DNA of 64,000 nt. It comes from Frateuria hangzhouensis (GTDB lineage Bacteria; Pseudomonadota; Gammaproteobacteria; Xanthomonadales; Rhodanobacteraceae). Below the pieces are notes generated by a model. The model was not told the DNA's origin. It searched no databases and saw only the letters and a program-made list of their open reading frames with translations. Each line of letters begins with the position of its first letter. Position 1 is the first letter of the stretch. The stretch is taken from contig NZ_JAPMIU010000005.1 in the NCBI RefSeq assembly GCF_026410505.1, positions 1 through 64,000 of the forward strand, in the 5' to 3' direction. A program made the position numbers and the translations under genes. Positions 5,964-57,338 of the stretch are shown here, piece after piece.

Positions 5964-6665
5964 TCAGAGTGCACTTTCCGGATGCTTACGTGGCCGGCCG
6001 ATCTTCGCCGGGCCGGCACGGCGCCCCAGCTGCGCTTCGATGGCTGCACGGAAACGGTCCGTGCCCAACGCGTGCTGCCGCTGCACGTGCAGGCGGATGG
6101 CGGCCAGGTCATCGTCGGCGATCGCCTGCCTGACCAGCTCACGGTAGGCCATGTGGCGGCAAGCTGCGTCGCGTCCCAGCGCAAGAAACATCGGGTGCGG
6201 CATAACCACCGGATCCGCCGTGCCGTGCGCATTGGCAGCGTAGCTCGACCAGCGGTAGCCACCGGGGTCGTCGACCATCCGGGCACGTACCGGGTTCAGC
6301 TCAATGTACCGGTAGCAATGCAACAGGTAGCTTTCGCGATCCACCAGGCAGGCCTTGTAGCTCCCTTCCCACAGCGTCCCGGTGCGATGATGTCGGTCGT
6401 TGACGTAACGCACGTACCGGCGCCCGAGCGCCTGCATGAGGGCTGCCACCTGCCCCGCCGCCGAAGGCGTCAGCAGCAGATGCACGTGGTTGGTCATCAG
6501 CACATAAGCATGCACGGCGCAATGCTGGCGCAGGGCAAGCTCCTTCAGCTCCTGCAGATAGCGCAGGAAGTCAGCCTCCTCGAAAAAACACGGCTGCCTG
6601 TCGTTGCCCCGCTGCACGACGTGCTGAGGGATACCTGGTAGATCGAGCCTTGGCTGGCGTGGCAT
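5964..6665 (-). CDS. REP-associated tyrosine transposase (RAYT), copy 1
   Basis: 233 residues from the ATG at 6665, giving the usual RAYT start MPRQPRLDLPGIPQHVVQRG. The Y1/HUH transposase fold is supported by the HxH pair in MTNHVHLLLTP (His60, His62) and by GRRYVRYVNDRHHRTGTLWE, which holds the candidate catalytic Tyr84 or Tyr87. Such enzymes nick and join single-stranded REP DNA and are linked to REP spread rather than their own transposition. The C-terminus has an AT-hook-like IGRPRK. The frame extends upstream through repeat DNA, but copy 2 starts at the same MPRQ, supporting this start. Appears intact. Confidence 0.9.
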   Translation of the reverse strand: MPRQPRLDLPGIPQHVVQRGNDRQPCFFEEADFLRYLQELKELALRQHCAVHAYVLMTNHVHLLLTPSAAGQVAALMQALGRRYVRYVNDRHHRTGTLWEGSYKACLVDRESYLLHCYRYIELNPVRARMVDDPGGYRWSSYAANAHGTADPVVMPHPMFLALGRDAACRHMAYRELVRQAIADDDLAAIRLHVQRQHALGTDRFRAAIEAQLGRRAGPAKIGRPRKHPESAL

Positions 6666-6760
6666 GGGAGCGTCCCTGAGCGAGCACCCAAGGTTGCCTG
6701 ATCGCTCCATGCCCCGGCTGTCAGCCAGGCCAGCCTCACCGTGTCGGGAAAGTGCACTCT
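5966..6760 (-). mobile_element. RAYT/REP unit 1 with inverted-repeat ends
   Basis: AGAGTGCACTTTCC at 5966-5979 and its exact reverse complement at 6747-6760 bracket the first RAYT gene. The left end overlaps the RAYT stop codon and supplies its last codons (E-S-A-L-stop). The same arrangement recurs at 8520-9318, so these palindromic ends look like the substrate or hallmark of this RAYT subfamily. Confidence 0.7.
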
Positions 6761-6773
6761 GGCTCGGGTTTTG

Positions 6774-6793
6774 CGGCGGCGAAATGGTGACCC
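6774..6793 (+). repeat. Partial copy of the GGCGGCGAAATGGTGACC repeat
   Basis: A 20-base piece (cggcggcgaaatggtgaccc) of a motif that occurs in longer form at 6841, 9347 and 14084, all in the same orientation. It lies directly beyond the right end of RAYT unit 1. Confidence 0.75.
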
Positions 6794-6840
6794 GGGTTTT
6801 CGACCCGGGTTTTCGGGTTTTCAGGCGGGAAAGCTTGGCG

Positions 6841-6871
6841 CCTATTGATCCCGGCGGCGAAATGGTGACCC
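6841..6871 (+). repeat. 31-base direct repeat, copy A
   Basis: Reads cctattgatccc then GGCGGCGAAATGGTGACC and one more c. Near-identical 31-base copies are at 9347-9377 and 14084-14114 on the same strand. The motif resembles the end of an insertion sequence left behind after decay; I cannot name the element. Confidence 0.75.
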
Positions 6872-6873
6872 AC

Positions 6874-7926
6874 TTAGTTGGATGACGGTTGTGCTTCCGA
6901 ATCGGTGTAATGTAACCCGATCTTGCGCAGTCCGTCCGCAAGTGCTTTTGTATTCCCGCCTTTTGGCCATCCGATAACGGTTTCAACCAATTGGCCGTCC
7001 TTAAGGAAATAAAAAGCAGGAGTCTCCCAGCTGGAGATCATAGGCCAATCTGATTGCGCAGATGCAAGTGCGATAGATTCAGAGGGATGATCTCTATTCC
7101 ACGAGGAAATGGCGTCGACGTCCAGGCTGCGGCCTGGTGGTGCTATCCAAGTAGAGTGTTCGGCCAGAACCCGCGCTAGAGCCGGATGATCTTCGATATA
7201 GCGCACGGCATTCTGGGTGAAGTGGCATTCCGGGTGTGAGACAACCACAATTTGGCTGGAGCCGATTTTTACATTGTGCCAAGCTAGTGATTTACCATTC
7301 TCACTGACTAGCAAACTCGAAGGACGATCTTCAAGCTTGGCGCCGTCAATTTTCGGAATCTCCTCTAAAGAAAGGTCTGGGTGGGCGGCGCTAAATATTC
7401 TTGCCTTGTTAAATTGGCGAGTTTGCAAAAAAGCCTCATACAGGTCTCTACGATCGTGCGCAGTAGCCTTTCCTTCTCGTTCCAACGCAGAAACATCGGC
7501 TTCCATATCATCAACAAACTTTGGTTCGCCAGAGTAGTAGCCAACGAGGTCAGCTGCTTGAAATAGGGTGGCTACTTGCTCAGGGCTCAACTGGGACAAT
7601 TTAGATTGCCAAGGTTTGATGAGCTCAGAATATTTATCTGAAAGTAACTGCACTCTTTCCATGGTTGTCGGGTAGTCTTTCAGGCTGATCGATTCTATTT
7701 GATGATATGAATTATCGAGCGTCGCATCTTTAGTAGTGTCCAAGTGAGCAAAAAAAATAAAAACGGCTAGCAGCATGACTATGCTCCAAAGGTGTGCCAG
7801 CAATGTCTCAGGGGCGAGCGGATGTACCGCTCGCCTCTTGGTCGTTAACTGATCAGCAATTACCGGTACAAATCCAGCTAAATCGTGGGGCGCAAGATGC
7901 TCTGTCCGCGCAGTAAAATCCGTCAT
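6874..7926 (-). CDS. Membrane-anchored thioredoxin-fold protein of unknown role
   Basis: 350 residues. A cytosolic N-terminus is followed by one TM helix (about 42-61, HLWSIVMLLAVFIFFAHL), a helical region (70-190) and a C-terminal thioredoxin-like domain (about 210-340). IVVVSHPECHFTQ carries the protein's only Cys (about 234), and the family cis-Pro is suggested by SSWETPAFYFLKDG. The CxxC pair is reduced to one Cys, so peroxiredoxin- or single-Cys-type chemistry, or a purely structural role, is more likely than disulfide exchange. Base composition is visibly more AT-rich than the chromosome. Its start overlaps the end of the frameshifted gene upstream, suggesting translational coupling. 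Confidence 0.65.
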   Translation of the reverse strand: MTDFTARTEHLAPHDLAGFVPVIADQLTTKRRAVHPLAPETLLAHLWSIVMLLAVFIFFAHLDTTKDATLDNSYHQIESISLKDYPTTMERVQLLSDKYSELIKPWQSKLSQLSPEQVATLFQAADLVGYYSGEPKFVDDMEADVSALEREGKATAHDRRDLYEAFLQTRQFNKARIFSAAHPDLSLEEIPKIDGAKLEDRPSSLLVSENGKSLAWHNVKIGSSQIVVVSHPECHFTQNAVRYIEDHPALARVLAEHSTWIAPPGRSLDVDAISSWNRDHPSESIALASAQSDWPMISSWETPAFYFLKDGQLVETVIGWPKGGNTKALADGLRKIGLHYTDSEAQPSSN

Positions 7927-8517: not shown

Positions 8518-9219
8518 TCAGAGTGCACTTTCCGCATTCTTCTTGGGGCGGCCGATCCTGGCCGGACCCGCACGGCGCCCCAGTTGCGCCTCGATGGCTG
8601 CACGGAAGCGGTCCGTACCCAACGCGTGCCGACGTTGCAGGTGCAGACGTATGGCCGTGAGATCGTCATCCGAAATGGCTTGCCTGACCAGTTCGCGATA
8701 GGCGTACTGCCGGGACTCCGCATCACGGCCCAGGGACAGAAAGTTCGGGTGCGGCGTGACCAGCGCGTCGTGCCTTCCATGCGCATTGGCGCCGTAGCTC
8801 GACCAGCGATAGCCATCGGGGTCCTCCACCATGCGGGCACGCACCGGGTTGAGCTCGATGTACCGGTAGCAATGCAACAGATAGCTCTCGCGGTCCACGG
8901 GACACGCCTTGTAGCGTCCCTCCCACAGCGTTCCGGTGCGATGGTGGCGATCGTTGATATAGCGCACGTACCTGCGCCCGAGCGCCTGCATCAGCGTCGC
9001 TACCTGGCCGGAACAGGTAGGCGTAAGCAGCAGATGCACGTGGTTGGTCATCAGCACGTAGGCATGCACGGCGCAATGCTTGCGCAAGGCGAGTTCCTTA
9101 AACTCCTGCAGGTAACGCAGGTAGTCGGCCTCCTCGAAGAAACAGGGTTGCCGATCGTTGCCTCGCTGCACGACGTGCTGAGGGATACCTGGCAGATCGA
9201 GCCTTGGCTGGCGTGGCAT
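8518..9219 (-). CDS. REP-associated tyrosine transposase (RAYT), copy 2
   Basis: 233 residues, the same length as and closely similar to the copy at 5964-6665. It retains HxH in MTNHVHLLLTP, GRRYVRYINDRHHRTGTLWE and YRYIELNPVRARM, so the HUH nuclease appears intact. The C-terminus is again AT-hook-like (IGRPKKN). The start MPRQPRLDL at 9219 is shared with copy 1. It sits just upstream of the restriction-modification cassette. Differences from copy 1 are mostly conservative substitutions, so the duplication is not very recent. Confidence 0.9.
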   Translation of the reverse strand: MPRQPRLDLPGIPQHVVQRGNDRQPCFFEEADYLRYLQEFKELALRKHCAVHAYVLMTNHVHLLLTPTCSGQVATLMQALGRRYVRYINDRHHRTGTLWEGRYKACPVDRESYLLHCYRYIELNPVRARMVEDPDGYRWSSYGANAHGRHDALVTPHPNFLSLGRDAESRQYAYRELVRQAISDDDLTAIRLHLQRRHALGTDRFRAAIEAQLGRRAGPARIGRPKKNAESAL

Positions 9220-9318
9220 GGGGTAGTTCGCTAGGCGAGAGAGCCCAAAAGGCTGCGGCAACCCTTTGCGATTCGCTGTCGGCGCGGACAGCCGCTCATT
9301 GTCAGAAAAGTGCACTCT
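8520..9318 (-). mobile_element. RAYT/REP unit 2 with inverted-repeat ends
   Basis: AGAGTGCACTTTCC at 8520-8533 and GAAAAGTGCACTCT at 9305-9318 bracket the second RAYT gene exactly as in unit 1. Just outside, at 9319 onward, the sequence ggctcgggttttg is shared with the same position beside unit 1, so a larger segment than the IR-bounded unit was duplicated. The 140 bases 8380-8519 between this unit and the frameshifted gene hold nothing recognisable. Confidence 0.7.
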
Positions 9319-9455: not shown

Positions 9456-9483
9456 CGGAATAGGACACAATGTCCGCATTCCG
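9456..9483 (+). promoter_or_regulatory. Dyad operator overlapping the methyltransferase start
   Basis: GGACA (9463-9467), CAA, TGTCC (9471-9475) form a perfect 5-bp inverted repeat, extended outward by CGGAAT (9456-9461) and ATTCCG (9478-9483). The ATG at 9470-9472 lies in its centre. It closely resembles the AGGACA-N3-TGTCCT site that, as I recall it, the M.SsoII methyltransferase binds through its N-terminal HTH to repress its own gene. The protein encoded here has such an HTH, so autorepression is a reasonable inference. Confidence 0.65.
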
Positions 9484-10747
9484 TCCCGCCGAGCGCCTTG
9501 CCATGTCCGAAGACCGCAAGCTCCTTTCCGAAGTCCGCAGGCGCTACACACAGGAGCAACTCGCCCAGTTGCTGAACACCACGGCCCGAAACATCCGACG
9601 CTGGGAGGTAGGGGAAACCGACCCTCCGCCCTATCTGGCCGATGCCATCCGCCAGCGACTGCTGCCGCTAGCCGATCCCCATGAGCAGGAGGAGCATGAC
9701 TTCCGGTTCATCGACCTGTTCGCCGGCATCGGCGGCATCCGCATGGCCTTCGAGGCCCACGGTGGCCGCTGCGTGTTCACCAGCGAATGGAACACTTACG
9801 CCCAGAAGACCTACCTGGCCAACTTCCCGGAGTCGGCCCACACCCTGGAAGGTGACATTACCAAGGTGGACGAGCGCGACATCCCCGACCATGACGTGCT
9901 GCTGGCGGGCTTCCCCTGCCAGCCCTTCAGTATTGCCGGGGTATCGAAGAAGAACGCCCTGGGTCGCGCCCACGGCTTTGCCGACGAAACCCAAGGCACC
10001 CTGTTCTTCGATGTGGCCCGCATTATTGCGGCCAAGCGGCCCGCGGCCTTCCTGCTCGAGAACGTCAAGAACCTCGTCAGCCACGACAAGGGCAACACTT
10101 TCCGGGTCATCAGGAAGGTGCTGGAGGAAGAGCTGGGCTACCACATTGCCTGTAAAGTGGTGGACGGCGCGCACTTCGTGCCCCAGCACCGCGAGCGCAT
10201 TCTGATCGTGGGCTTCCGCGAGAAGACCGATTTCGGCTTTTCTGACCTTGTTCTGCCGGAACATAAGCCGACCATGAAGGAAATTCTGCATCCGCAGGAC
10301 GGCAGCGAGAAACCAGAGGGACACTACACCACAGGCCCGAAGGCCAAGGTGGACGAGCGCTACACGCTCACACCCAAACTTTGGGCCTACCTGCAGGCCT
10401 ATGCGGCAAAGCACCGCGCTGCAGGCAATGGCTTCGGCTTTGGCCTAGTCGGCCCGGACAGCGTGTCCCGCACGCTGTCGGCCCGCTACTACAAGGACGG
10501 CTCGGAGATCCTCGTGTCACAGGGGCCGCGTAAACGCCCGCGCCGGCTCACGCCGCGGGAGTGCGCCCGCCTGATGGGCTTCCCGGATGACTTCATTATT
10601 CCGGTCAGCGACACGCAGGCCTACAAGCAGTTCGGGAACAGTGTGGTCATGCCGGTGATGCGGGAAGTCGCCCGCGCCATGAAGCCGCGGATCATGGAGC
10701 TCATCGACCCGGAGCTGGCCAAGCAGAGATCCCTGCTGGTTGCCTGA
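9470..10747 (+). CDS. DNA (cytosine-5)-methyltransferase with N-terminal HTH (Dcm/M.SsoII type)
   Basis: 425 residues. Residues about 18-55 form a lambda-repressor-like helix-turn-helix (RRYTQEQLAQLLNTTARNIR). The C5-methyltransferase domain follows: motif I DLFAGIGGI (82-90, AdoMet), motif IV GFPCQPFS with catalytic Cys150, motif VI LLENVKN, motif VIII QHRERI, then the target recognition region and motif X (YKQFGNSVVMPV). HTH-plus-C5-methylase architecture is that of M.EcoRII, Dcm and M.SsoII, which modify CCWGG or CCNGG, so a CC-N-GG-type target is predicted. An internal start at 9503 is possible. Vsr follows after 6 bases. It protects host DNA against the endonuclease encoded at 12071-13687. 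Confidence 0.92.
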   Translation: MSAFRPAERLAMSEDRKLLSEVRRRYTQEQLAQLLNTTARNIRRWEVGETDPPPYLADAIRQRLLPLADPHEQEEHDFRFIDLFAGIGGIRMAFEAHGGRCVFTSEWNTYAQKTYLANFPESAHTLEGDITKVDERDIPDHDVLLAGFPCQPFSIAGVSKKNALGRAHGFADETQGTLFFDVARIIAAKRPAAFLLENVKNLVSHDKGNTFRVIRKVLEEELGYHIACKVVDGAHFVPQHRERILIVGFREKTDFGFSDLVLPEHKPTMKEILHPQDGSEKPEGHYTTGPKAKVDERYTLTPKLWAYLQAYAAKHRAAGNGFGFGLVGPDSVSRTLSARYYKDGSEILVSQGPRKRPRRLTPRECARLMGFPDDFIIPVSDTQAYKQFGNSVVMPVMREVARAMKPRIMELIDPELAKQRSLLVA

Positions 10748-10753
10748 GTACGC

Positions 10754-11158
10754 ATGGACATCGTGGATCGGCCCACTCGCAGCCGGATGATGTCCGGCAT
10801 CCGCGGCAAGAACACCATGCCGGAACTGACCGTGCGCAGCTTTCTGCACCGTGCAGGACTGCGCTTCCGCCTTCACGCCAAACTGCCCGGCAAACCCGAC
10901 CTAGTGTTTCCCAAGTACCGCACGGTGGTCTTCGTGCACGGCTGCTTCTGGCACCGGCACGAGGATTGCCGATATGCCACGACACCAGCCAGCAATCCGG
11001 AATTTTGGCAGCACAAATTTGCGGCCAATGTCCGTCGCGACGCAAAGGTCAGGGAGCAACTGGCAGAGCTAGGCTGGCGCGCATTGGTAATCTGGGCTTG
11101 CCAGTTAAATGAGCCCCGCCTCCGAGCGCTCGCCATGGAAATCCGGCAGGGAAAGTAG
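10754..11158 (+). CDS. vsr: Very short patch repair endonuclease
   Basis: 134 residues. Family landmarks are MMSGIRGKNTMPE, the catalytic Asp49 in GKPDLVF, and zinc ligands in HGCFWHRHEDC plus a later Cys in VIWACQL. Vsr nicks 5-prime to the T of T:G mismatches created when 5-methylcytosine deaminates, limiting C-to-T mutation at methylated sites. Its position 6 bases after the methyltransferase indicates co-transcription and matched sequence specificity. Length matches E. coli Vsr (about 156) with a slightly shorter C-terminus. It is convergent with the HNH gene 40 bases downstream. Confidence 0.93.
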   Translation: MDIVDRPTRSRMMSGIRGKNTMPELTVRSFLHRAGLRFRLHAKLPGKPDLVFPKYRTVVFVHGCFWHRHEDCRYATTPASNPEFWQHKFAANVRRDAKVREQLAELGWRALVIWACQLNEPRLRALAMEIRQGK

Positions 11159-11198
11159 CGACCCGATTCCTCCGAATGTGGCTACCCCGTTTTGACAC

Positions 11199-11951
11199 TT
11201 AAACCGGAATCTTTGCAACGTGCTTTCTGAGCACTTGACGGAGTTCCAACCTGTTCTTAGCGAAGTGAAGTTCGCGGTGATGATGCGGACACAGTGCCGC
11301 AGCATTCACCAAACTGTCGTCTCCCTTCTCTGACAGCGGGGTTATGTGGTGCACTTCAAGGTACGAGGCTCCGTTGTCCTTAAGAAAGAGCACGCAGGTG
11401 CAGCCAGGCATCTCGCATTTTCCGCTTGCCCTGATCAAGGCACCCGCAGCCACAATTGGGCTTCGGATGAATTCGGTCCGATCAACCTTGCGGGTCTTCG
11501 GCTTCCCTTTCGCCTTTTTTGCCAGAGCCATAATCTTCTTGGCGGCCTCCTGCGCAGCTTTGGCTATGTCGGCTGCGGTGGGGGCTGACGGCTGCTTTCT
11601 GCCGGGGGCTATGGTGGAAACGACTTTCTCGATGAATAGACAAGCCCCAACGTTGCCAATCAAAACGTAATCGCCCTTCCTTAGCCACGACGCGATTTCA
11701 TGGCCCATCCTTGGCTCCGGCGTTCGAGTCGCCCCCTTTCTGAGAGCATGATAGTAGGAGGCGCCGACTGATTTTTTGACCGGGTCCCCGAGCACCGTGA
11801 TCTTGAATTCTTCGGCTGGCCGACTTTCCGACCCTGAAATACCCGAATCCTCGATCGCTGCCACCTGTTGCTTGTTCGGCACGTAGGCCTTCTTAGCGAC
11901 GTCGGTCTTTGAAACCTTCTTTACACCGTAGTTATCGAAACTGATCGCCAT
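11199..11951 (-). CDS. HNH endonuclease within the R-M cassette
   Basis: About 250 residues from the ATG at 11951, preceded by AAGGGG; an in-frame ATG at 12014 is possible. The C-terminal HNH domain (about 170-240) shows Cys pairs (KCEMPGCTC), the LEVHHITPLSEKGDDSLVNA core with the His-His, and CPHHHRELH. A central Ala/Lys-rich segment (AADIAKAAQEAAKKIMALAK) looks like a helical linker. The N-terminal half has no recognised fold. It lies between Vsr and the restriction enzyme, on the opposite strand from both. It may be a second, possibly modification-dependent, nuclease of the cassette, but this is inference from position only. Confidence 0.75.
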   Translation of the reverse strand: MAISFDNYGVKKVSKTDVAKKAYVPNKQQVAAIEDSGISGSESRPAEEFKITVLGDPVKKSVGASYYHALRKGATRTPEPRMGHEIASWLRKGDYVLIGNVGACLFIEKVVSTIAPGRKQPSAPTAADIAKAAQEAAKKIMALAKKAKGKPKTRKVDRTEFIRSPIVAAGALIRASGKCEMPGCTCVLFLKDNGASYLEVHHITPLSEKGDDSLVNAAALCPHHHRELHFAKNRLELRQVLRKHVAKIPV

Positions 11952-12070
11952 ACTTACCCCTTGGTCGTCCGCGAGGTACGCGGCGTAGGCGCGAGCCTCC
12001 CATGGCTGCGCCACGAACTCAAGATGGAGAACGGGGATGCGAACAATGGACGGAGCAATGGGGAGCTTTA

Positions 12071-13687
12071 ATGGGTACGGAGGGAATTACAGACTCGCCC
12101 TCCAGACGGCCCCTGCCGCAGTCGTCTCGCTCCACCGGCTACGCGGGCGATCGCCTGGCAACACGCTCGCATGCATGCCACGTCGCCCACGCCTCCAGCT
12201 TGCAGGTGCCCCCCCCACGTCACCCAGCGCCGTGTCGATGGCTGCGCAATGGGACGGACGCAGCCATCAGCGACCTTGCTACCACGATAGCGACCCACAC
12301 GCTACGCGCTGACGGCTTTGCAGTGATTCTTGCCGCAGGTAACCTCGTGCCAAGTGAGCACGCGAGCCTCCCTGTGGAATCTTTCCCCGACCTCTCCACA
12401 CTTGTTTCCCGCTTCCGGCACCTCGGCGCGACCCGGGTCTTCTACAAATTGCTGAGCGAAAACGACAACAGCAAGCAACAGATTTACCTCGGCAGCAGCT
12501 TTGGCGTCCTGACGTATTTCCCGTACGGACCCGTTCGACCGGAGGCGGGGGCGAAGGACCCGACCTTCAAGGCGCCGCTCGAATTTTTCTGGGTTGGCCC
12601 AACGACCTCGGAAAGGGCTCCCAATGCACAGCTGATCCTCTACTCAGGCTATCCAGAAGTGAGGCTTTCCGGGTTCCTGCGTGGCTGTCGAACTGGCCCG
12701 AATGAGCACCTGCGCCCCATCCCGAAAGAACACCGACGCGGTGTCGATGGCCGCGTTCTCTTCTTCGGCATAACCACAAGCAATCAGACCCTTGCGTACT
12801 TGGCACCGACAGGATCGGCGCTCGCAGCCGAAGCCATTCTGGCTTCGCATTCCGAGACGGGGTTGTTCCAGGAACTCGCGATTGCCGGTCCAACAGCCGG
12901 GGACTCCAAGTCACTCCTGCTAGCGAGACTTCGCGAGATCCAGCAGCTCGGGGCGGTTCCATCTATGAGATTGAACAATGCAGGCGAGCGTATCCCGTAC
13001 AAGGCGCGCAATGGTGGTGGCTACACGCTGGAAGCCCTGTTGGGCATCAAGCCCAACGGAGACGCCTCTCCTGACTATCTGGGATGGGAAGTAAAGGCGT
13101 TCGGCGGCAGTTACCTTACGCTCATCACACCGGAACCCGACGGGGGCTACTACGGTTCGGAAGGTGTCGGCGCGTTCGTGCGCCGGTATGGGCGCCACGT
13201 AGCTGAAAAGGACCAGATGTACTTCACGGGGCGTCACTATTACGACCGGCCCGATACGACGACGTCCATGACTCTAGGTCTCATAGGGTTTGACGCCGCC
13301 AAGGGCGTCATCACCGATGCGGGCGGCCGCATAGTACTCACTGATAGAAACGGCAGCGAGGCTGCAACATGGAGCTACAGCCAGTTACTTACCCACTGGA
13401 ATCGCAAGCATGCGTCTGCTGCGTACGTGCCTTATACAAGCCAGCGCAGCAGCGAACCAACCTATCGCTACCAGAACCCGGTGCTGCTTGGCGAAAGGAC
13501 CGACTTCGCCAAGTATCTCAGCGCCATAGCCAAAGGGTTCGTGGCCTTCGATCCTGGCTCGAAGGTCGATGGCCTCACAACCGCACGCCCGAAAGTGAAG
13601 GCACGGAGCCAGTTCAGGATTCCCCGGGAGCGTCTGCCGGTTCTATACGAGAGCTTCGAAGAGCTCGACCTGACCCAAGGGACCTAA
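12071..13687 (+). CDS. MvaI/BcnI-family type II restriction endonuclease
   Basis: About 538 residues from the ATG at 12071 (GGGGAG at proper spacing); the frame opens at 12002. The first 60-80 residues are Ser/Arg/His-rich and look non-native, so the true start may be later or affected by the C8 run at 12209. The C-terminal half holds the catalytic region of the MvaI/BcnI family: NGGGYTLEALLGIKPNG then SPDYLGWEVKAFGG, giving the metal-binding D...ExK at about residues 334-343. MvaI and BcnI cut CCWGG and CCSGG as monomers, which fits the Dcm-like methylase in the cassette. The N-terminal extension (80-330) may bind DNA or oligomerise. Confidence 0.82.
   Translation: MGTEGITDSPSRRPLPQSSRSTGYAGDRLATRSHACHVAHASSLQVPPPRHPAPCRWLRNGTDAAISDLATTIATHTLRADGFAVILAAGNLVPSEHASLPVESFPDLSTLVSRFRHLGATRVFYKLLSENDNSKQQIYLGSSFGVLTYFPYGPVRPEAGAKDPTFKAPLEFFWVGPTTSERAPNAQLILYSGYPEVRLSGFLRGCRTGPNEHLRPIPKEHRRGVDGRVLFFGITTSNQTLAYLAPTGSALAAEAILASHSETGLFQELAIAGPTAGDSKSLLLARLREIQQLGAVPSMRLNNAGERIPYKARNGGGYTLEALLGIKPNGDASPDYLGWEVKAFGGSYLTLITPEPDGGYYGSEGVGAFVRRYGRHVAEKDQMYFTGRHYYDRPDTTTSMTLGLIGFDAAKGVITDAGGRIVLTDRNGSEAATWSYSQLLTHWNRKHASAAYVPYTSQRSSEPTYRYQNPVLLGERTDFAKYLSAIAKGFVAFDPGSKVDGLTTARPKVKARSQFRIPRERLPVLYESFEELDLTQGT
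12209..12216 (+). repeat. Run of 8 C residues inside the restriction enzyme 5-prime region
   Basis: Eight consecutive C residues in the doubtful N-terminal part of the endonuclease frame. A gain or loss of one base would connect the conserved frame to a different upstream start. Confidence 0.7.
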
Positions 13688-14312: not shown

Positions 14313-14525
14313 CTACGGCTTTAACGACCAAAGCAGGAAAAAGCCACCGGCCACACACAAAAAACCAGCAAGCAAAGGTGCCAAAACAACAAGTCGCGAA
14401 TCCGGCTTATGGCAAGCAACCTTCACGGAGAAAGCTAAACCACGCTTAATCATAAAAGCGCCAAGCCAAACAACGATCACGACTGCAGATAGATATGCAA
14501 CCTTAAGTACAAGAGCTGCGTCCAT
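14313..14525 (-). CDS. Small two-TM membrane protein, third gene of the DCD/TS operon
   Basis: 70 residues, about half in two hydrophobic helices: 5-25 (LVLKVAYLSAVVIVVWLGAF) and 46-67 (VLAPLLAGFLCVAGGFFLLW), joined by a basic loop (IKRGLAFSVKVACHK). It starts 9 bases after the stop of the thymidylate-synthase-fold gene, so it is almost certainly co-transcribed with it. No family recognised. Small two-TM proteins in nucleotide-linked conflict operons are often effectors or membrane partners; that role is only a suggestion here. The first operon gene also carries a TM helix, so the two may form a membrane complex. Confidence 0.7.
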   Translation of the reverse strand: MDAALVLKVAYLSAVVIVVWLGAFMIKRGLAFSVKVACHKPDSRLVVLAPLLAGFLCVAGGFFLLWSLKP

Positions 14526-14534
14526 AGCCTCTCT

Positions 14535-15392
14535 TTACGCCGCCAACCTAGGATTACGCGCCAAAAGGCGCAACGAATAAGCCTCGAAGTCCGTGATCTC
14601 TCCTTCTGACCACGAGCCACCGCGTCTCCATACGCGCTCAGCCTCAGCGAGCCGCAACAAGCTTTTTGCGTCTTGGATCGGCGGCATCTTTTCTTCAACC
14701 AATGCCAACGGGTCCAGCCGAGAGATCTTTCGGGCCATTTCGAAGTGGCGCTCGTAAATATGCATGGATGCCGCATAATGGTAGTAATTACCGAGCCGCA
14801 AACCAAGCTCGACCGCCATTAACTCTTGCAAAGTCGTAAACAAGAATACGTCGTAGGGGACACCCCAAATAACGTCGTTACTCCTCATGTTCACGAATGC
14901 ATGCAGCGCCCCCTCTCTAGCAATGAATTGAATCGTATTCGTGCATGACAAGTCGCTTGTGGGTGCAGATACGTCTTTCTCCCGCCTCAACGAAAGAACC
15001 GCTCGACGCGTTGTCGGCTCACGCCGAAGGAGAGCCTTCACGTTCTCCCATTGAGAGGATTCCACATCCTGACCAAAGATCGTAGCACCGTAGCAACTTC
15101 CCCTTATTTGCCCTTCATCGGCGAAGTCTCTCCACTTAGGCGCATAAAACGCCAAAGGTTCAACGGAACGCTCACCCCGCAAGTTCCAAGCAAGCTCTGC
15201 GATGGCCAAGGAGGCACTCCATCGACGTCCTGGGATGATAGTTAGCCTTTGGCGGGGGTCTGTGACGACAAATGAGACACCCAATAACTCGCGTGTTAGA
15301 AGACCGCGAGGATCCACCTCAACGCCTTGAGTCATCACCGCGCGGCAAAGCTCAATTTGGACACGGCTGGAGGAACAGCAGCTGATGTTCAT
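14535..15392 (-). CDS. Thymidylate-synthase-fold enzyme, predicted dCMP (hydroxy)methylase
   Basis: 285 residues aligning along their length with ThyA. Conserved positions: Glu66 in IAELAWNLRG, Trp87 (PKWRDFADE), Tyr101 (SCYGATIF), Arg129-Arg130, the nucleophile Cys150 (DLSCTNTIQF), Arg170, Asp173, His211 and Tyr213 (SMHIYERH). The ThyA motif RSxDVFLGxPFN reads RSNDVIWGVPYD here, so the Asn that selects uracil is Asp181. The same change is found in phage dCMP hydroxymethylase, and engineered Asn-to-Asp ThyA accepts dCMP. A dCMP-specific enzyme is therefore predicted, methylating or hydroxymethylating position 5. The canonical ThyA is elsewhere (56544). It starts 8 bases after the DCD-fold gene. 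AT-richer than the core genes. Confidence 0.8.
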   Translation of the reverse strand: MNISCCSSSRVQIELCRAVMTQGVEVDPRGLLTRELLGVSFVVTDPRQRLTIIPGRRWSASLAIAELAWNLRGERSVEPLAFYAPKWRDFADEGQIRGSCYGATIFGQDVESSQWENVKALLRREPTTRRAVLSLRREKDVSAPTSDLSCTNTIQFIAREGALHAFVNMRSNDVIWGVPYDVFLFTTLQELMAVELGLRLGNYYHYAASMHIYERHFEMARKISRLDPLALVEEKMPPIQDAKSLLRLAEAERVWRRGGSWSEGEITDFEAYSLRLLARNPRLAA

Positions 15393-15400
15393 AGGCTCTC

Positions 15401-16225
15401 CTATTCCCGTGAGCGGGGATCGGCTTTCGGGCTCGATCCTATTGTTGCGGGGGTAGATCTCGCGGATTGAGATTTCAGCAGACCCTCGAGTGCGGACACC
15501 TTGGCTTCCAGGCGTCGCATCTCAGCCATGTCCACTGGTGGTTGTCCTTGGCTGCTGTGATCCGCCGCTGACAATACTCGAGTGACCACAGCACCACCAA
15601 CCGTAACCAAGAGCGCGAAAAACGCCAGCGAAAAAGCGGCAATCGGTAAATACTTGAGGAAAGCATCACGGAGCCTTGCATTTTCCTTCTCCGATGCTCT
15701 TCCCACCAGCTGGTCGATGTTAAGGAAGTATTTCCCAAAATTATCCACCGCTCGCGAACAAACTTCACGCTGATACGAGCTATCTTCAAAGTTGAGCGAA
15801 CGATTGTCTCGGACATACTCGCTTCGCTCCTCCATTGAGACTCGGTGGAACGTCAACCTGATAAATTTGTCTCCCTTGGAGAGGAGTCTTCGTTCGGCAC
15901 TAAAATTCAAAATTGAGGTGGAAATCTTGCCTGACCACCCCGGATCAACCACGCCTATATTCAGCGTCAACAAGCCTTGATTGCATTTGCGAGTAAGCAC
16001 ATGCGCCAAGGCGCACACATCCAAAGGAAGTCGAACTTCTTCTTCTGAGACCAAGTGAGCAATACCCTGCGGCTCCAGCACAAGAGAGTCAACCTTCCTC
16101 CCTTTATGGTCCACTATCTCGCCAACTGTCATAACTTGGCCGACTTTCCAGAACTCTTTAACAGGAGTTGCCGGATGTCCTCCAAAGCAGGCGATTTTGG
16201 ACCCATCGAAGCTTGGCTGAATCAT
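15401..16225 (-). CDS. Membrane-anchored dCTP-deaminase/dUTPase-fold protein
   Basis: 274 residues. Residues about 20-135 match the trimeric dCTP deaminase fold: an LPLDVCALAHVLTRK strand, then GVVDPGWSGKIS (91-102), equivalent to the IDPGWSG motif of E. coli Dcd. The residue at the catalytic Glu position of Dcd (VLEFYN) is Ser or Ile here (STSILNF), and the RSSLAR nucleotide motif is degraded to TRKCNQ, so deamination is doubtful; nucleotide binding or sensing is more likely. A TM helix (about 193-215) and a C-terminal coiled coil (MRRLEAKVSALEGLLKSQ) follow. First gene of a tight operon; AAGG precedes its ATG. The icmF stop is 47 bases upstream on the same strand. Confidence 0.72.
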   Translation of the reverse strand: MIQPSFDGSKIACFGGHPATPVKEFWKVGQVMTVGEIVDHKGRKVDSLVLEPQGIAHLVSEEEVRLPLDVCALAHVLTRKCNQGLLTLNIGVVDPGWSGKISTSILNFSAERRLLSKGDKFIRLTFHRVSMEERSEYVRDNRSLNFEDSSYQREVCSRAVDNFGKYFLNIDQLVGRASEKENARLRDAFLKYLPIAAFSLAFFALLVTVGGAVVTRVLSAADHSSQGQPPVDMAEMRRLEAKVSALEGLLKSQSARSTPATIGSSPKADPRSRE

Positions 16226-16272: not shown

Positions 16273-19200
16273 CTACATATTCCTCCGATACTCCCCACCC
16301 ACGTCGTACAACGCGTGACTGATCTGCCCCAGCGAGTTGTACTTCACCGCCTCGACCAACTGCTCGAACACATTCCGCCGCTCCCGAGCCGTCTGCTGCA
16401 ACCGCTTCAAGCTCTCCGGCGCCAACCCATTCCGCGCCTCTCCGAACGCCCGCACGTTGGCAATCTGCTGCCCCTTCTCCTCCTCCGTGGAGCGAATGAG
16501 CTCGATCTCGGTGGCCACTTCTCCACCATGCTCCTTCGGCAGGAAGGTGTTCACGCCAATCAACGGCAGCGACCCATCGTGCTTCTTGTGCTCGTAGTAC
16601 AGCGACTCTTCCTGGATCTTGCCGCGCTGGTACATGGTGTCCATCGCCCCAAGCACGCCACCACGCTCGCTGATCGCCTCGAACTCCTTGTACACCGCCT
16701 CTTCCACCAGGTCGGTCAGCTCCTCGACCACGTAGCTGCCCTGCCAGGGGTTCTCGTTGAAGTTGAGGCCCAGTTCCTTGTTGATGATCATCTGGATCGC
16801 CACGGCGCGGCGCACGCTTTCTTCGGTCGGCGTGGTGATGGCCTCGTCGTAGGCGTTGGTGTGCAGGCTGTTGCAGTTGTCGAACAGCGCGTAGAGCGCC
16901 TGCAGCGTGGTGCGGATGTCGTTGAACTGGATCTCCTGCGCGTGCAGTGAGCGGCCGGACGTCTGGATGTGGTACTTCATCATCTGGGAGCGGGGGCTGG
17001 CGCCGTAGCGCTCACGCATGGCGCGGGCCCAGATGCGGCGGGCGACGCGGCCGATGACGGTGTACTCCGGGTCCATGCCGTTGCTGAAGAAGAAGCTCAG
17101 GTTCGGCGCGAAGTCGTCGATGTGCATGCCCCGGGCGAGGTAGTACTCGACGATGGTGAAGCCGTTGGACAGGGTGAAGGCGAGCTGGCTGATCGGGTTC
17201 GCGCCGGCCTCGGCGATGTGGTAGCCGGAGATGGACACCGAGTAGAAGTTGCGGACCTTGTGCTCGACGAAGTACTGCTGGATGTCGCCCATCATGCGCA
17301 GGGCGAATTCGGTGGAAAAGATGCAGGTGTTCTGCGCCTGGTCTTCCTTGAGGATGTCGGCCTGCACGGTGCCGCGCACGGCCTGCAGGGTCTCCTGCTT
17401 GATGCGGGCGTAGGTCTCGGCGTCGACGAGCTGGTCGCCGGTGACGCCCAGCAGGCCTAGCCCTAAGCCATCATTGCCCTTGGGCAGCTCGCCGGAGTAG
17501 CGCGGGCGCTCGCGGCCTTCGTAGAGCTTGGCGATGGTCTTCTCGGCCTCGGCCCAGCGGGCGGCATCGGCCTTGAGATACTTCTCCACGTTCTGGTCGA
17601 TCGCGGTGTTCATGAACATTGCGAGGATCATCGGCGCCGGGCCGTTGATGGTCATGGAGACCGAGGTGCTCGGCGCGGACAGGTCGAAGCCGGAGTAGAG
17701 CTTCTTCATGTCGTCCAGGGTGGCGATGTTGACGCCGGAGTTGCCGATCTTGCCGTAGATGTCCGGGCGCGGGGCCGGGTCTTCGCCGTACAGGGTGACT
17801 GAGTCGAACGCGGTGGACAGGCGCGTGGCGGCGCCGCCCTGGCTCAGGTAGTGGAAGCGGCGGTTGGTGCGCTCCGGGGTGCCCTCGCCGGCGAACATGC
17901 GGGTGGGGTCCTCGCCGGTGCGGCGGTACGGGTAGACGCCGCCGGTGTAGGGGTAGTGACCGGGGAGGTTTTCCTTGCCGAGGAAGAGGAGTTGGTCGCC
18001 CCAGTTGGTGGTTTTGGGTGGGGCGACTTTGGGGATCTTCTGGTGGCTGAGGGATTCGCGGTAGTTGTCGACGCGGATGGTCTTGCCGCGGACTTGGTAT
18101 TCGTTGACGTCGGTGGTGACGGATTCGCGGAGCTTCGGCCAGTCGCGCAGGAGATGGGTCGACTCGGCGGAGAGTTCCTTGACGGCTTCGTTGTAGCGCT
18201 GGCGTAAGAGCAGCAGTGTGCGGTCTACGGCAGGCGCTTCGACTTCGCCCTGCGGGCTACGCTCAGCGCGAACGGTTCCATTGGAGGTTTGCGCAAGACC
18301 CGTACCCTCACCCTCGGTCCCTCTCCCGGAGGGAGAGGGATGCACAGCCTCGGCCTTGGAGGTTGAGGGAGGCAGAGCCTCGGCCTTGGGGGTTGAGGGG
18401 TGCAGGGCGTCGCGGGGGTAGAGGTCGAGCGGGCGCGGGAGCGCCTGGTCGCCCAGTTCCTTGAGCGATTCGTAGTAGTGCTGGGCTTTGCTGGCGGCTT
18501 CGGCCTGGCGGGCGATGGAGCTGTTGATGCCCCGGCCCTGCTCGGCGATTTCGGCGAGGTAGCGCACGCGGCTGCCGGGGATGAGGACGGTGGCGCGCGG
18601 TTCCTTGAGGCTGGTGTCGAGGTCGGGCTGGAAATTGCAGTTCGGGCTGCCGATGGCGTGGGGGGAAGAAATGGGGTCAGAGTCATTTTTCGACCCACGC
18701 CCCTCGCCTGTGCCACCGCCTTCGTTCGAAAAATGACTCTGACCCCATTTCTTCTCTCGCAGCAGGCGGCAGAGGTTCACGAACATCCAGGTCACGCCCG
18801 GGTCGTTGAACTGGCTGGCGATGGTCGGGTAGACCGGCACGTCCTCGTCCTTCAGGGCGAAGGCGGTGCGGTTGCGCTTCCACTGCTTGCGCACGTCGCG
18901 CAGGGCGTCTTCGGCGCCGCGCTTGTCGAACTTGTTGAGCACGATCAACTCGGCGAAGTCGATCATGTCGATCTTCTCGAGCTGGCTGGCCGCGCCGTAG
19001 TCGCTGGTCATCACGTAGAGCGGGAAGTCGACCAGGTCGACGATCTCCGAGTCGCTCTGGCCGATGCCGGCGGTTTCCACGATGACCAGGTCGTAGGGCT
19101 GGCTCTTCAGGAACGCGATGCAGTCCTTGAGCACCTCGTTGGTGGCCATGTGCTGGCGACGGGTGGCCATGGAGCGCATGTACACGCGGTGGGAGCGCAA

Positions 19201-19995
19201 CGAGTTCATGCGGATGCGGTCGCCCAGCAGCGCGCCGCCGGAGCGGCGGCGGGTCGGGTCGACGGCGAGCACGGCGATGCGCATCTCGGGGAAGGCGTGC
19301 AGGAAGCGCAGCAGCAGTTCGTCCACCACGGACGACTTGCCGGCGCCGCCGGTGCCGGTGAGGCCCAGCACCGGGGTCTTGCGGCCGGCCAGGTCCCATT
19401 CCTTGCGCAGGTGGGCCAGGTCGGTCTCGCCGAGACGGGTTTCCTCGATGTCGGTGAGCATGTGGCCGACGGAGATTTCGTCGTCGATGTCGACGGTCGG
19501 CACGCCGGCGGGCTCGGCCTTCAGGCGCGCGGCCTGGGCGGCGCGGGTGCGGGTGATGACGTCCTCGATCATCTCGGTCAGGCCCATCTTCATCCCGTCG
19601 TTGGGGTGATAGATGCGCTCGACGCCGTAGGCCTGCAGTTCCTTGATTTCTTCCGGGGTGATGGTGCCGCCGCCACCGCCGAACACGCGGATGTGGCCGG
19701 CGCCGCGCTCGCGCAGCATGTCGACCATGTACTTGAAGTACTCGACGTGGCCACCCTGGTAGGAGGACAGCGCGATGGCGTCGGCGTCTTCCTGCAGCGC
19801 GGCGCGCACGACGTCTTCCACGGAGCGGTTGTGACCCAGGTGGACCACCTCGGCGCCCTGGCTCTGGATGATGCGGCGCATGATGTTGATCGCCGCGTCG
19901 TGGCCATCGAAGAGGCTGGCGGCAGTGACGAAACGCAGCGGGGCGGTTTCGGCCTGCGCGGCGGTGGCGGGGACGTGGCTGGCGGGGGAACTCAT
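16273..19995 (-). CDS. icmF: Fused isobutyryl-CoA mutase (IcmF-type), B12-dependent
   Basis: 1240 residues from the ATG at 19995 (GGAG at good spacing). Order: B12-binding domain (about 20-150) with the His32 ligand in [13 protein letters not shown]; MeaI-type G-protein chaperone (205-400) with P-loop [12 protein letters not shown] (211-222); then the mutase TIM barrel (about 600-1240, e.g. [12 protein letters not shown]). It interconverts isobutyryl-CoA and n-butyryl-CoA and related acyl-CoAs; the G domain loads and protects the cofactor. Characterised IcmF proteins are about 1090 residues. The surplus is mostly two low-complexity inserts between G domain and mutase domain (about 415-443 and 530-590) made of repeat DNA. 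Single gene, not in an operon. Confidence 0.9.
18226..18425. repeat. Repeat-derived in-frame insert 2 inside icmF
   Basis: Contains the ccctctcccggagggagaggg-type palindrome (about 18318-18349), a ctacgctcagcgcgaacgg string also found near 48850, and a short tandem (gcctcggccttggaggttga, repeated as gcctcggccttgggggttga). In protein it reads [20 protein letters not shown] and [12 protein letters not shown]. The same palindrome family lies intergenically at 25295-25391 and 53160-53311. Confidence 0.8.
18668..18751. repeat. Repeat-derived in-frame insert 1 inside icmF: perfect 25-bp inverted repeat
   Basis: The arms 18668-18692 and 18727-18751 are exact reverse complements (core ggggtcagagtcattttt) around a 34-base spacer. 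In protein this reads [13 protein letters not shown] and later SKNDSDPIS. The arm core resembles the ends of the RAYT units (TCAGAGTGCACTTT), so it is probably a REP doublet inserted in frame. Confidence 0.85.
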
Positions 19996-20160
19996 GGCGA
20001 CTCCGACATCTCTTTGCTCTGAACCCTTCGATTCTAGTGGGTTCAGGGTTAAGCGTGCGGAGCGCGGGTGGCGGGGGTTCGACGGCAGTGCGTACCTACA
20101 GGGAGCCTCGAAAGTTTCCTGGAGACGCCGCATCACCCGACAGGCCACTGTGCGGAGAAC

Positions 20161-20226
20161 CTGTAGGAGCCCAGTTGTGGGCGATCGGACGACCCAGAGC
20201 ATCGCCCACAAGTGGGCTCCTACAAG
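20161..20226. repeat. REP doublet, TAGGAGCCCA family
   Basis: ctgtaggagcccagttgtgggcgat paired with its near inverse (atcgcccacaagtgggctcctacaag). It is preceded at 20095-20112 by a short flanking repeat (cctacagggagcctcgaa). Confidence 0.85.
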
Positions 20227-56543: not shown

Positions 56544-57338
56544 TTAGACGGCGACGGGCGCCTTGATCGCCGGGTGAGGCGCGTAGCCCTCCAGCGTGAT
56601 GTCCTCGAAGCAAAAATCCTCCAGCGCCCGCACGTCCGGATTCAACACCACGCGCGGCGACGCTTTCGGCTCACGACCAAGCTGCAGCCGCGCCTGCTCC
56701 ACATGGTTGTTGTACAGGTGCGCATCACCCAGCGTGTGCACGAAATCGCCTACGCCCAGGCCGCACACCTGCGCCACCATGTGGGTGAGCAGCGCGTAGC
56801 TGGCGATGTTGAAAGGCACGCCCAGGAAGATGTCGCCGGAACGCTGGTAGAGCTGGCAACTGAGCTTGCCGTCGGCGACGTAGAACTGGAACAGCGTGTG
56901 GCAGGGCATCAGCGCCATCTTCGGCAGCTCGCCCACGTTCCAGGCGCTGACGATCAGGCGCCTGGAATCGGGATTGCGGCGGATCTCCTCGACCACCCAG
57001 CGAAGCTGGTCGACGGCGCCGCCATCGGCCGTCGGCCAGGCGCGCCACTGCTTGCCGTAGACCGGGCCCAGGTTGCCCTCGGCGTCGGCCCACTCGTCCC
57101 AGATGCTGACGCCGTGTTCCTTCAGATAGGCGATGTTGGTGTCGCCGCGCAGGAACCAGATCAGCTCGTGCACGACCGACTTCCAGTGCACCTTCTTGGT
57201 GGTGACCAGCGGGAAGCCTTCGTTGAGATCGAAGCGCATCTGCCAGCCGAACACGCTTTTCGTGCCGGTGCCGGTGCGGTCGGTCTTTTCCGTGCCGTGG
57301 TGGAGGACGTGGTCGAGCAGGTCGAGGTAGGTGCGCAT
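56544..57338 (-). CDS. thyA: Thymidylate synthase
   Basis: 264 residues, same length as E. coli ThyA. Folate and nucleotide residues are intact: [30 protein letters not shown], catalytic Cys in [30 protein letters not shown] with the uracil-selecting Asn, and [10 protein letters not shown]. It makes dTMP from dUMP using methylene-THF. In many gammaproteobacteria thyA follows lgt; here lgt is nearby (58552) but separated by a divergent gene. Confidence 0.97.

Follow-up and report, generated by a model that had tools for sequence, protein, structure and literature searches.

The 64,000-nucleotide stretch of Frateuria hangzhouensis DNA analysed here (contig NZ_JAPMIU010000005.1, positions 1 to 64,000; hereafter the window) carries an operon of three genes, the first of which encodes a membrane-anchored protein with the dCTP deaminase (DCD)/dUTPase fold that has lost the deaminase residues and is predicted to sense a deoxynucleotide altered by its partner enzyme. 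The partner in this case is a thymidylate-synthase (TS)-fold protein, probably a dCMP 5-hydroxymethylase. Relatives of the first protein (DCD-TM, a DCD-fold domain with a transmembrane (TM) helix and a C-terminal helix) have a gene for a nucleotide-modifying enzyme within 1.5 kb at 23 of 35 loci, compared with none of 29 loci of ordinary dcd genes. The three minus-strand open reading frames (ORFs), 15401-16225 (gene 1), 14535-15392 (gene 2) and 14313-14525 (gene 3), are all open, start with ATG and are separated by gaps of 8 and 9 bases.

Gene 1 encodes 274 amino acids and matches Pfam DCD at 4.3e-7, while its match to TIGR02274 falls under the cut-off of that model. An AlphaFold model built from 20 aligned relatives (mean predicted local distance difference test score, pLDDT, 77.4; predicted template modelling score, pTM, 0.51; block means of at least 90 across residues 31-120) places the beta core of the DCD/dUTPase fold in residues 30-130 (15836-16138), and Foldseek matches the model to dUTPase and dCTP deaminase structures (E 2.7e-9). 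The nearest solved sequences carry the name dCTP deaminase in the sequence table and dUTPase in the structure library, and Escherichia coli E138A structures with dCTP and dTTP are among the structural matches listed. Residues 195-213 (15587-15643; Kyte-Doolittle 2.29) form a predicted TM segment within a model helix spanning residues 170-224, and a further C-terminal helix at residues 233-254 (15464-15529) is, judging from the model, a probable coiled coil.

Glu138 is the catalytic residue of deamination in dCTP deaminase, an enzyme in which Arg115 and Ser111 also have roles. Gene 1 has Ser104 (15914-15916) in the alignment column of Glu138 and lacks both Arg115 and Ser111, and these losses extend to its relatives. 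In an alignment of 35 DCD-TM proteins and 29 ordinary DCDs (E. coli numbering), E138 is retained in none of the former and in all of the latter, R115 in 4/35 vs. 29/29 and S111 in 6/35 vs. 29/29; S112 is kept by four of the DCD-TM proteins. D128 (35/35 vs. 28/29) and N141 (35/35 vs. 29/29), on the other hand, persist. A hydropathy scan detects a TM segment in 28 of the 35 and in none of the 29. The Glu is also absent, by eye, from one further DCD-TM protein (L133), which like three ordinary DCDs (L134, L146 and L149) was read stop to stop and stands outside the 35 and 29. A working dCTP deaminase was ruled out for gene 1 on these residues, and so the DCD-TM proteins appear to have retained the fold together with some of the pocket while losing the deaminase chemistry. 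Gene 1 thus resembles the dCTP deaminase/dUTPase superfamily in its fold and in its pocket Asp and Asn, but departs from it in lacking the deaminase residues and in carrying the TM and C-terminal helices.

Alternatively, gene 1 might be an active membrane hydrolase of deoxynucleoside triphosphates that deprives the phage of dCTP or dUTP while gene 2 removes dCMP, nucleotide depletion being a known defence strategy. The DPG Asp conserved in all 35 proteins and the dUTPases among the closest structures to gene 1 would suit such an activity. However, with E138, R115, S111 and S112 retained in just 0, 4, 6 and 4 of 35 (of the dUTPase motifs, the Asp alone was compared), we consider it rather improbable.

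Gene 2 encodes 285 amino acids and matches Pfam Thymidylat_synt at 7.3e-28. Its closest relative in the PDB by sequence is the CMP 5-hydroxymethylase MilA (2.8e-35), with the T4 dCMP hydroxymethylase gp42 (1b49) scoring lower (E 3.5e-16). Passages of two studies provide a residue code for such enzymes: Asp or Asn at one position selects cytosine or uracil, Ser/Arg as opposed to Ala/Lys selects deoxyribose over ribose (PMC5175136, PMC6400193), and Asp145 of the T4 hydroxymethylase activates water (PMC6400193). The residue set of gene 2 at the compared positions is E66, Y101, R129, D147, C150, S171, D181, H211 and Y213. The catalytic Cys, Glu and Tyr are thus present as C150, E66 and Y101, and Asp147, at the water-activating position, lies with the nucleophile Cys150 in 14943-14954 (positions after passages of PMC6400193). 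Asp181 (14850-14852) occupies the cytosine-selecting position (T4 Asp179), given as Asn for ThyA in passages of PMC5175136, while S171 and R129 correspond to the deoxyribose-selecting T4 Ser169 and Arg123. Five ThyA sequences aligned alongside (that of the window and L002-L005) have Asn in place of D181 and Leu in place of D147. Gene 2 therefore fits T4 gp42 at Cys148, Glu60, Tyr96, Asp145, Ser169, Arg123 and Asp179, although gp42 is a phage biosynthetic enzyme serving the phage's own DNA and its overall similarity to gene 2 is below that of MilA.

By this code, gene 2 is probably a dCMP 5-hydroxymethylase making 5-hydroxymethyl-dCMP, or it may be a dCMP methylase with methyl-dCMP as product. 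A role as ThyA-type dUMP methylase was rejected in view of Asp181, where E. coli ThyA has Asn (position 177), and of the ordinary thyA found elsewhere in the window (56544-57338, minus strand, 264 amino acids), with Asn at the cytosine/uracil position and Leu at the water-activating one; a role as CMP hydroxymethylase was rejected because S171 and R129 replace Ala176 and Lys133 of MilA, which select ribose. The same residues and the intact thyA speak against a contribution of the operon to ordinary metabolism, whether as a surplus thymidylate synthase or as a nucleoside antibiotic gene of the MilA kind, and make this highly improbable in spite of MilA being the best PDB relative.

Much of what the first-pass annotation had read from this operon held up on these analyses, namely three real and intact leftward genes with gaps of 8 and 9 bases, the DCD and Thymidylat_synt domains together with two hydrophobic segments in gene 3, the TM helix and further helix of gene 1 (hydropathy scan and AlphaFold model), and a dCMP-type rather than dUMP-type enzyme (D181, S171, R129 and D147). 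What called for revision was the DCD-fold protein as a dCTPase-type partner of the hydroxymethylase; since its residues are not those of a working deaminase, a sensor role is likelier.

TS genes with the cytosine-type Asp also occur in other surroundings. A viral scan with gene 2 yielded 24 loci, 12 of which entered the residue table. A recurrent set (L019 1108-3917, L027 5938-7835, L028 5875-7852, L029 6007-7873) has such a TS gene followed, directly or one gene later, by an aGPT-Pplase3/ADDT-family protein (Pfam on L027 and L019), and in the three plasmids an opposite-strand gene annotated ImmA/IrrE belongs to it; this may be another nucleotide-based system. Plasmid relatives in L025 and L026 are clustered with QueA-like, PqqD, CYTH and ABC transporter genes, perhaps as a nucleoside product pathway.

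The association of DCD-TM genes with nucleotide enzymes was assessed with 26 query proteins from the DCD-TM loci plus the window thyA. The partner families counted at the 23 loci comprise TS, dCMP-deaminase-like proteins, ThyX, adenylosuccinate synthetase, deoxynucleoside/thymidylate kinase, 5-hydroxymethyldeoxyuridine (5-hmdU) kinase, MazG and UDG. If DUF1643, two unnamed families and one HD protein are counted too, the number within 1.5 kb rises to 27 of 35, again compared with 0 of 29; within 4 kb, 24 of the DCD-TM loci have a nucleotide enzyme and 28 a member of the extended list. Leaving out the window and the three loci that the TS query had led to (L016, L020 and L135), 19 and 23 of 31 loci remain, respectively. 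Pfam scans of 20 plus five neighbours gave matches above cut-off to dCMP_cyt_deam_1, Thy1, Adenylsucc_synt, dNK, Thymidylate_kin, HMUDK_hel, MazG, Thymidylat_synt, DUF1643, UDG and to IrrE-type and C1 peptidases. The HD protein (L024), a MazG-like protein (L109) and a radical-SAM-like protein (L136) stayed under the cut-off, and a 248-residue family (L135) and a 196-residue family (L060) had no accepted Pfam match. Adenylosuccinate synthetase with DCD-TM and a deoxynucleoside kinase recurs in two genomes (G089 and G1569). The wider unit is a DCD-TM gene with one of many nucleotide enzymes rather than the trio of the window.

Several single loci illustrate this range of neighbours. In L117 (5637-7321) the DCD-TM gene overlaps one for a flavin-dependent ThyX (Pfam Thy1 1.1e-47), in L136 (6148-7938) the radical-SAM-like gene directly follows DCD-TM, and an unnamed family of about 190 residues lies beside many DCD-TM genes (L060 6270-6860, L111 5833-6408, L112 7175-7732). 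On a Priestia plasmid (L119 4977-8161), two TM segments are predicted in the DCD protein, and one gene away is a gene annotated as DUF4062 (Pfam 1.7e-4, slightly under the cut-off), a domain described as an antiphage NADase in passages of a preprint (PMC13174449).

The neighbourhoods raise the question of whether the operon modifies the base of its own element's DNA for self-protection, with gene 1 as a house-cleaning enzyme. Indeed DCD-TM relatives adjoin genes of the hypermodification type (5-hmdU kinase, MazG and UDG), but the window operon contains no kinase, polymerase, transferase or glycosylase gene, and gene 1 combines the missing deaminase residues with a TM helix, so that we regard this possibility as quite improbable.

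DCD-TM followed by TS, the arrangement of the window, is more than a chance order, as it is seen again in Arenimonas (L016) and G364 (L033/L062). The cytosine-selecting residue was read in the TS of the window and of L062, and is unread in L016 because the frame is interrupted there. In Arenimonas (L016 7130-8560) genes 1 and 2 indeed both look frame-interrupted, through decay or sequencing error. In a Chryseobacterium metagenome-assembled genome (MAG) DCD-TM and TS share a contig, and in an Acidobacteria MAG they are on different contigs. Next to the sister DCD-TM genes of the window clade (L022 and L114) stand genes for cytidine/dCMP-family deaminases, and at L062 a deaminase of this family is present along with TS, a pattern that suggests dCMP as the shared substrate. 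A 5-hmdU kinase within 4 kb accompanies all four uracil-type (Asn) TS genes beside DCD-TM (L020, L103, L131 and L135) vs. none of the three loci with the window-type TS (window, L016 and L062).

In a tree of the 35 DCD-TM proteins and eight of the 29 ordinary DCDs, the ordinary DCDs form one clade (support 99/96), and so do the three loci with the window-type TS (99/90), which are joined by the two deaminase loci (98/90). Partner labels, assigned by the analyst, change 15 times on this tree vs. 31.0 times in shuffles (0 of 200 as low); two pairs of loci in it are closely similar copies (L024/L110 and L023/L105).

A profile search found DCD-TM at E <1e-20 in six of 398 Pseudomonadota genomes. 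At E up to 1e-15, matches occurred in two of 299 genomes of the order (G000 among them), in six of 350 in the window's class (one, L134, being ordinary), in eight of 337 in the class of G211 (one, L118, an ordinary DCD) and in one of 78 in the G089 class, where the seed was the sole match. Among 198 genomes from the phylum of the Chryseobacterium MAG only this MAG was hit, and seven of 149 were hit in the phylum of an Acidimicrobiaceae MAG, four of these with ordinary DCDs. Further DCD-TM genes were found on plasmids; of 51 plasmid records matched in one search, nine of the best ten were opened (H78 being L023), and the rest of the 30 listed include ordinary dcd. The DCD-TM family is thus sparse, yet spread over several phyla. 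Gene 1 had no match at E 1e-4 in 50,697 phage records, a scan with six peptide patterns found no relatives of it in viral contigs, and the L034 type of DCD-TM had no match in phage records. The L031 type had 70 phage-record matches, none of which spans 80% of the query, and the 12 of these that were listed are archaeal-virus dUTPases/dCTP deaminases or a hypothetical protein. A phage-borne gene set was dismissed on these searches with the gene 1, L034 and L031 types.

Gene 3 encodes 70 residues with hydrophobic, predicted TM segments at residues 3-21 and 45-63, and has no Pfam match above cut-off. In Arenimonas (L016) a 73-codon ORF with two hydrophobic segments lies in the corresponding place. 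Homology of the two was rejected, their alignment score of 18.0 standing against a shuffled mean of 17.4 (210 of 500 shuffles scoring as high). None of the ORFs after TS in G364 (L062) has two predicted TM segments, and with gene 3 as query no relative turned up within 4 kb at any of the 34 other DCD-TM loci. Of the linkage of three genes proposed in the first-pass annotation, the pairing of DCD-TM with TS was thus recovered in other genomes (L016, G364), whereas the two-TM gene did not prove to be a conserved core, its counterpart in Arenimonas being similar in size, topology and place and without detectable sequence similarity; likewise, the trio gave way to the wider unit of DCD-TM with one of many nucleotide enzymes.

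The operon was acquired recently, probably by horizontal transfer. Its guanine-plus-cytosine (GC) content is 52.0% vs. 66.1% for the window, and third-position GC is 0.53, 0.59 and 0.44 in its genes vs. 0.89 in the gene upstream (16273-20211) and 0.90 in thyA. This upstream gene, on the same strand, encodes a methylmalonyl-CoA-mutase-family fusion of mutase, MeaB and B12-binding domains, which we take to be icmF-like; gene 1 starts 47 bases past its end, and its 3' end is the border of a variable slot. In four of four congeners the operon is absent from the 15 kb beyond this gene and the match ends at its 3' end, a fifth congener has no match to it, and gene 2 is absent from all five congener genomes searched, which have one ThyA-level match each. 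Promoter-like and terminator-like sites were no more numerous than in shuffles in a promoter and terminator scan.

In two of the four congeners the variable slot is occupied by genes with a known or candidate role in defence, as judged from ten ORFs picked from the four slots: a GmrSD-like HNH protein and a Drt3b-type reverse transcriptase in G004 and PDC-M30/M41-type proteins in G002. In the window itself, the operon adjoins a restriction-modification (R-M) cassette (9470-13687; Pfam and PADLOC) consisting of a C5 methylase (9470-10747, plus strand), Vsr (10754-11158, plus), an HNH/type-IV-like protein (11199-12014, minus) and an MvaI/BcnI-family endonuclease (12002-13687, plus), so that both the cassette and the defence-like setting noticed at first reading stand. 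Elsewhere DCD-TM adjoins gajA/gajB (L109) or lies near methylase and Vsr genes (L022). We consider it likely that the operon is, in some form, a defence-type mobile module. As further observations in such settings, a SIR2-like protein, a methylase, a restriction enzyme and what is presumably a ParA-like protein are encoded near DCD-TM in another member of the order (L111 7758-11424). In the window, 5964-6986 and 8518-9315 hold two similar genes with Y1-type (IS200-like) transposase domains (Pfam Y1_Tnp), which we assume are probably REP-associated, and stretches related to them occur in the congeners' variable slots.

The HNH protein, encoded opposite to the R-M genes, is similar to type IV restriction enzymes (PADLOC mREase_IV, 4e-19), and the operon might on that account act with it, hydroxymethyl-dCTP entering phage DNA that the HNH protein then cuts. 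Phages do incorporate hydroxymethyl-dC into DNA, according to passages of PMC6400193. However, relatives of the HNH protein were found within 4 kb of DCD-TM at none of 34 other loci, and such poisoning and restriction, which would leave gene 1 without a role, appears improbable.

Several points weigh against reading the operon as an anti-phage module with gene 1 as a membrane sensor of a partner's product. The partner queries came from the very loci that were counted, and the comparison of 23 of 35 with 0 of 29 involves controls made up of the DCDs most similar to the profile, with five others added; these were not matched by genome and have slightly shorter flanks (median 1.44 kb, least 0.33 kb). 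Seven of the 35 DCD-TM loci have no partner family within 4 kb (L064, L115, L116, L119, L132, L136 and L145; L115 is cut by a contig end), and only two other loci were found with DCD-TM and the window-type TS, of which L016 appears frame-interrupted. The hydropathy scan finds no TM segment in seven of the 35, and the retained Asp could permit a dUTPase-like hydrolysis. Deep forks of the tree are weak (66/39), and L109 and L119 cluster with ordinary DCDs (89/88), so that a single origin of DCD-TM is unsupported and membrane-bound dead DCDs may have arisen more than once. As for defence, the slot of G001 has a partial BnzA match and that of G003 no match in its three scanned ORFs, and PADLOC, which holds no model for the operon genes, gave no match to them. 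Activity, ligand binding and phage protection are, moreover, predictions from computation.

From the folds, the residue loss and residue code, the linkage, the recent acquisition and the slot location, all of which are computed, we infer an activating anti-phage mechanism that we favour tentatively, at somewhat less than even likelihood. Gene 2 would hydroxymethylate dCMP to 5-hydroxymethyl-dCMP, and during infection kinases would convert this to the triphosphate; most likely a phage deoxynucleoside monophosphate (dNMP) kinase would do so, as the operon has none. The dead DCD-fold domain of gene 1, with its pocket Asp and Asn retained, would bind this modified nucleotide at the cytoplasmic face of the membrane; the TM helix of the protein, possibly with help from the two-TM product of gene 3, would then damage or depolarise the membrane and stop phage growth. 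We place most confidence in gene 1 sensing a deoxynucleotide altered by the partner enzyme, and least in the kinase step, in whether the signal activates or restrains, and in the membrane damage.

The signal might indeed run the other way, if gene 2 constantly supplied a modified deoxycytidine nucleotide that silenced gene 1, and phage enzymes hydrolysing or consuming dCTP-type nucleotides removed it and so freed the membrane effector. Phages often remodel dCTP pools, and the anatomy of the operon would be identical. Passages on Panoptes offer a precedent for decoy nucleotides. PurA-like, ThyX and MazG partners would, however, all need to yield an inhibitor, and we find such a guard or decoy unlikely.

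The membrane effectors of CBASS and Pycsar consist of a nucleotide-binding domain, of a fold other than that of gene 1, fused to TM helices; unlike those systems, the operon has no cyclase among its three genes (Pfam). A house-cleaning fold is found in KomB of the Kongming system. As described in passages of PMC12948488, a host enzyme in Kongming alters the base of a deoxynucleotide, kinases convert it to the triphosphate (dITP) and a sensor protein binds it. The activating model for the operon would share this logic of base-altering enzyme, kinase and sensor, but Kongming proceeds from dAMP to dITP and to NAD depletion where the operon would use cytosine hydroxymethylation and a membrane-anchored sensor. 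By Pfam labels the two have no gene in common, as neither a deaminase nor a Ham1 or Sir2 domain is assigned to any of the operon genes. Passages of the DefensePredictor study (PMC13092281) report validated systems protecting E. coli that contain a TS domain and a 5-hmdU kinase domain, and list MazG, MazG-C and dUTPase domains as predicted defensive; they are likened to the operon by domains alone, and these passages mention no membrane DCD protein. DndF is predicted, in passages of PMC10853773, to hold a sensor of phage-derived modified nucleotides. We found no description of a membrane DCD protein with these partners in searches of open-licence literature, and subscription work may mention such genes.

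Beyond the operon, it is possible, if rather doubtful, that DCD-TM is a general modular immune receptor for various base-modified deoxynucleotides supplied by exchangeable partner enzymes, with hydroxymethyl-dC, dU, dS/dZ-type purines and hydroxymethyl-dU derivatives as ligands, in which case many bacterial 'DNA-modification' gene sets would be signalling systems. Should the activating model be right, it would offer a testable ligand (hydroxymethyl-dCTP) and trigger (phage dNMP kinase), and genes annotated 'deoxycytidine triphosphate deaminase' or 'hypothetical protein' would gain a function, with caution due against a metabolic reading of them. Immune signalling through base-modified nucleotides would then be no single oddity but a recurring design in which the enzymes can be exchanged and the dead-enzyme sensor at the membrane is shared.

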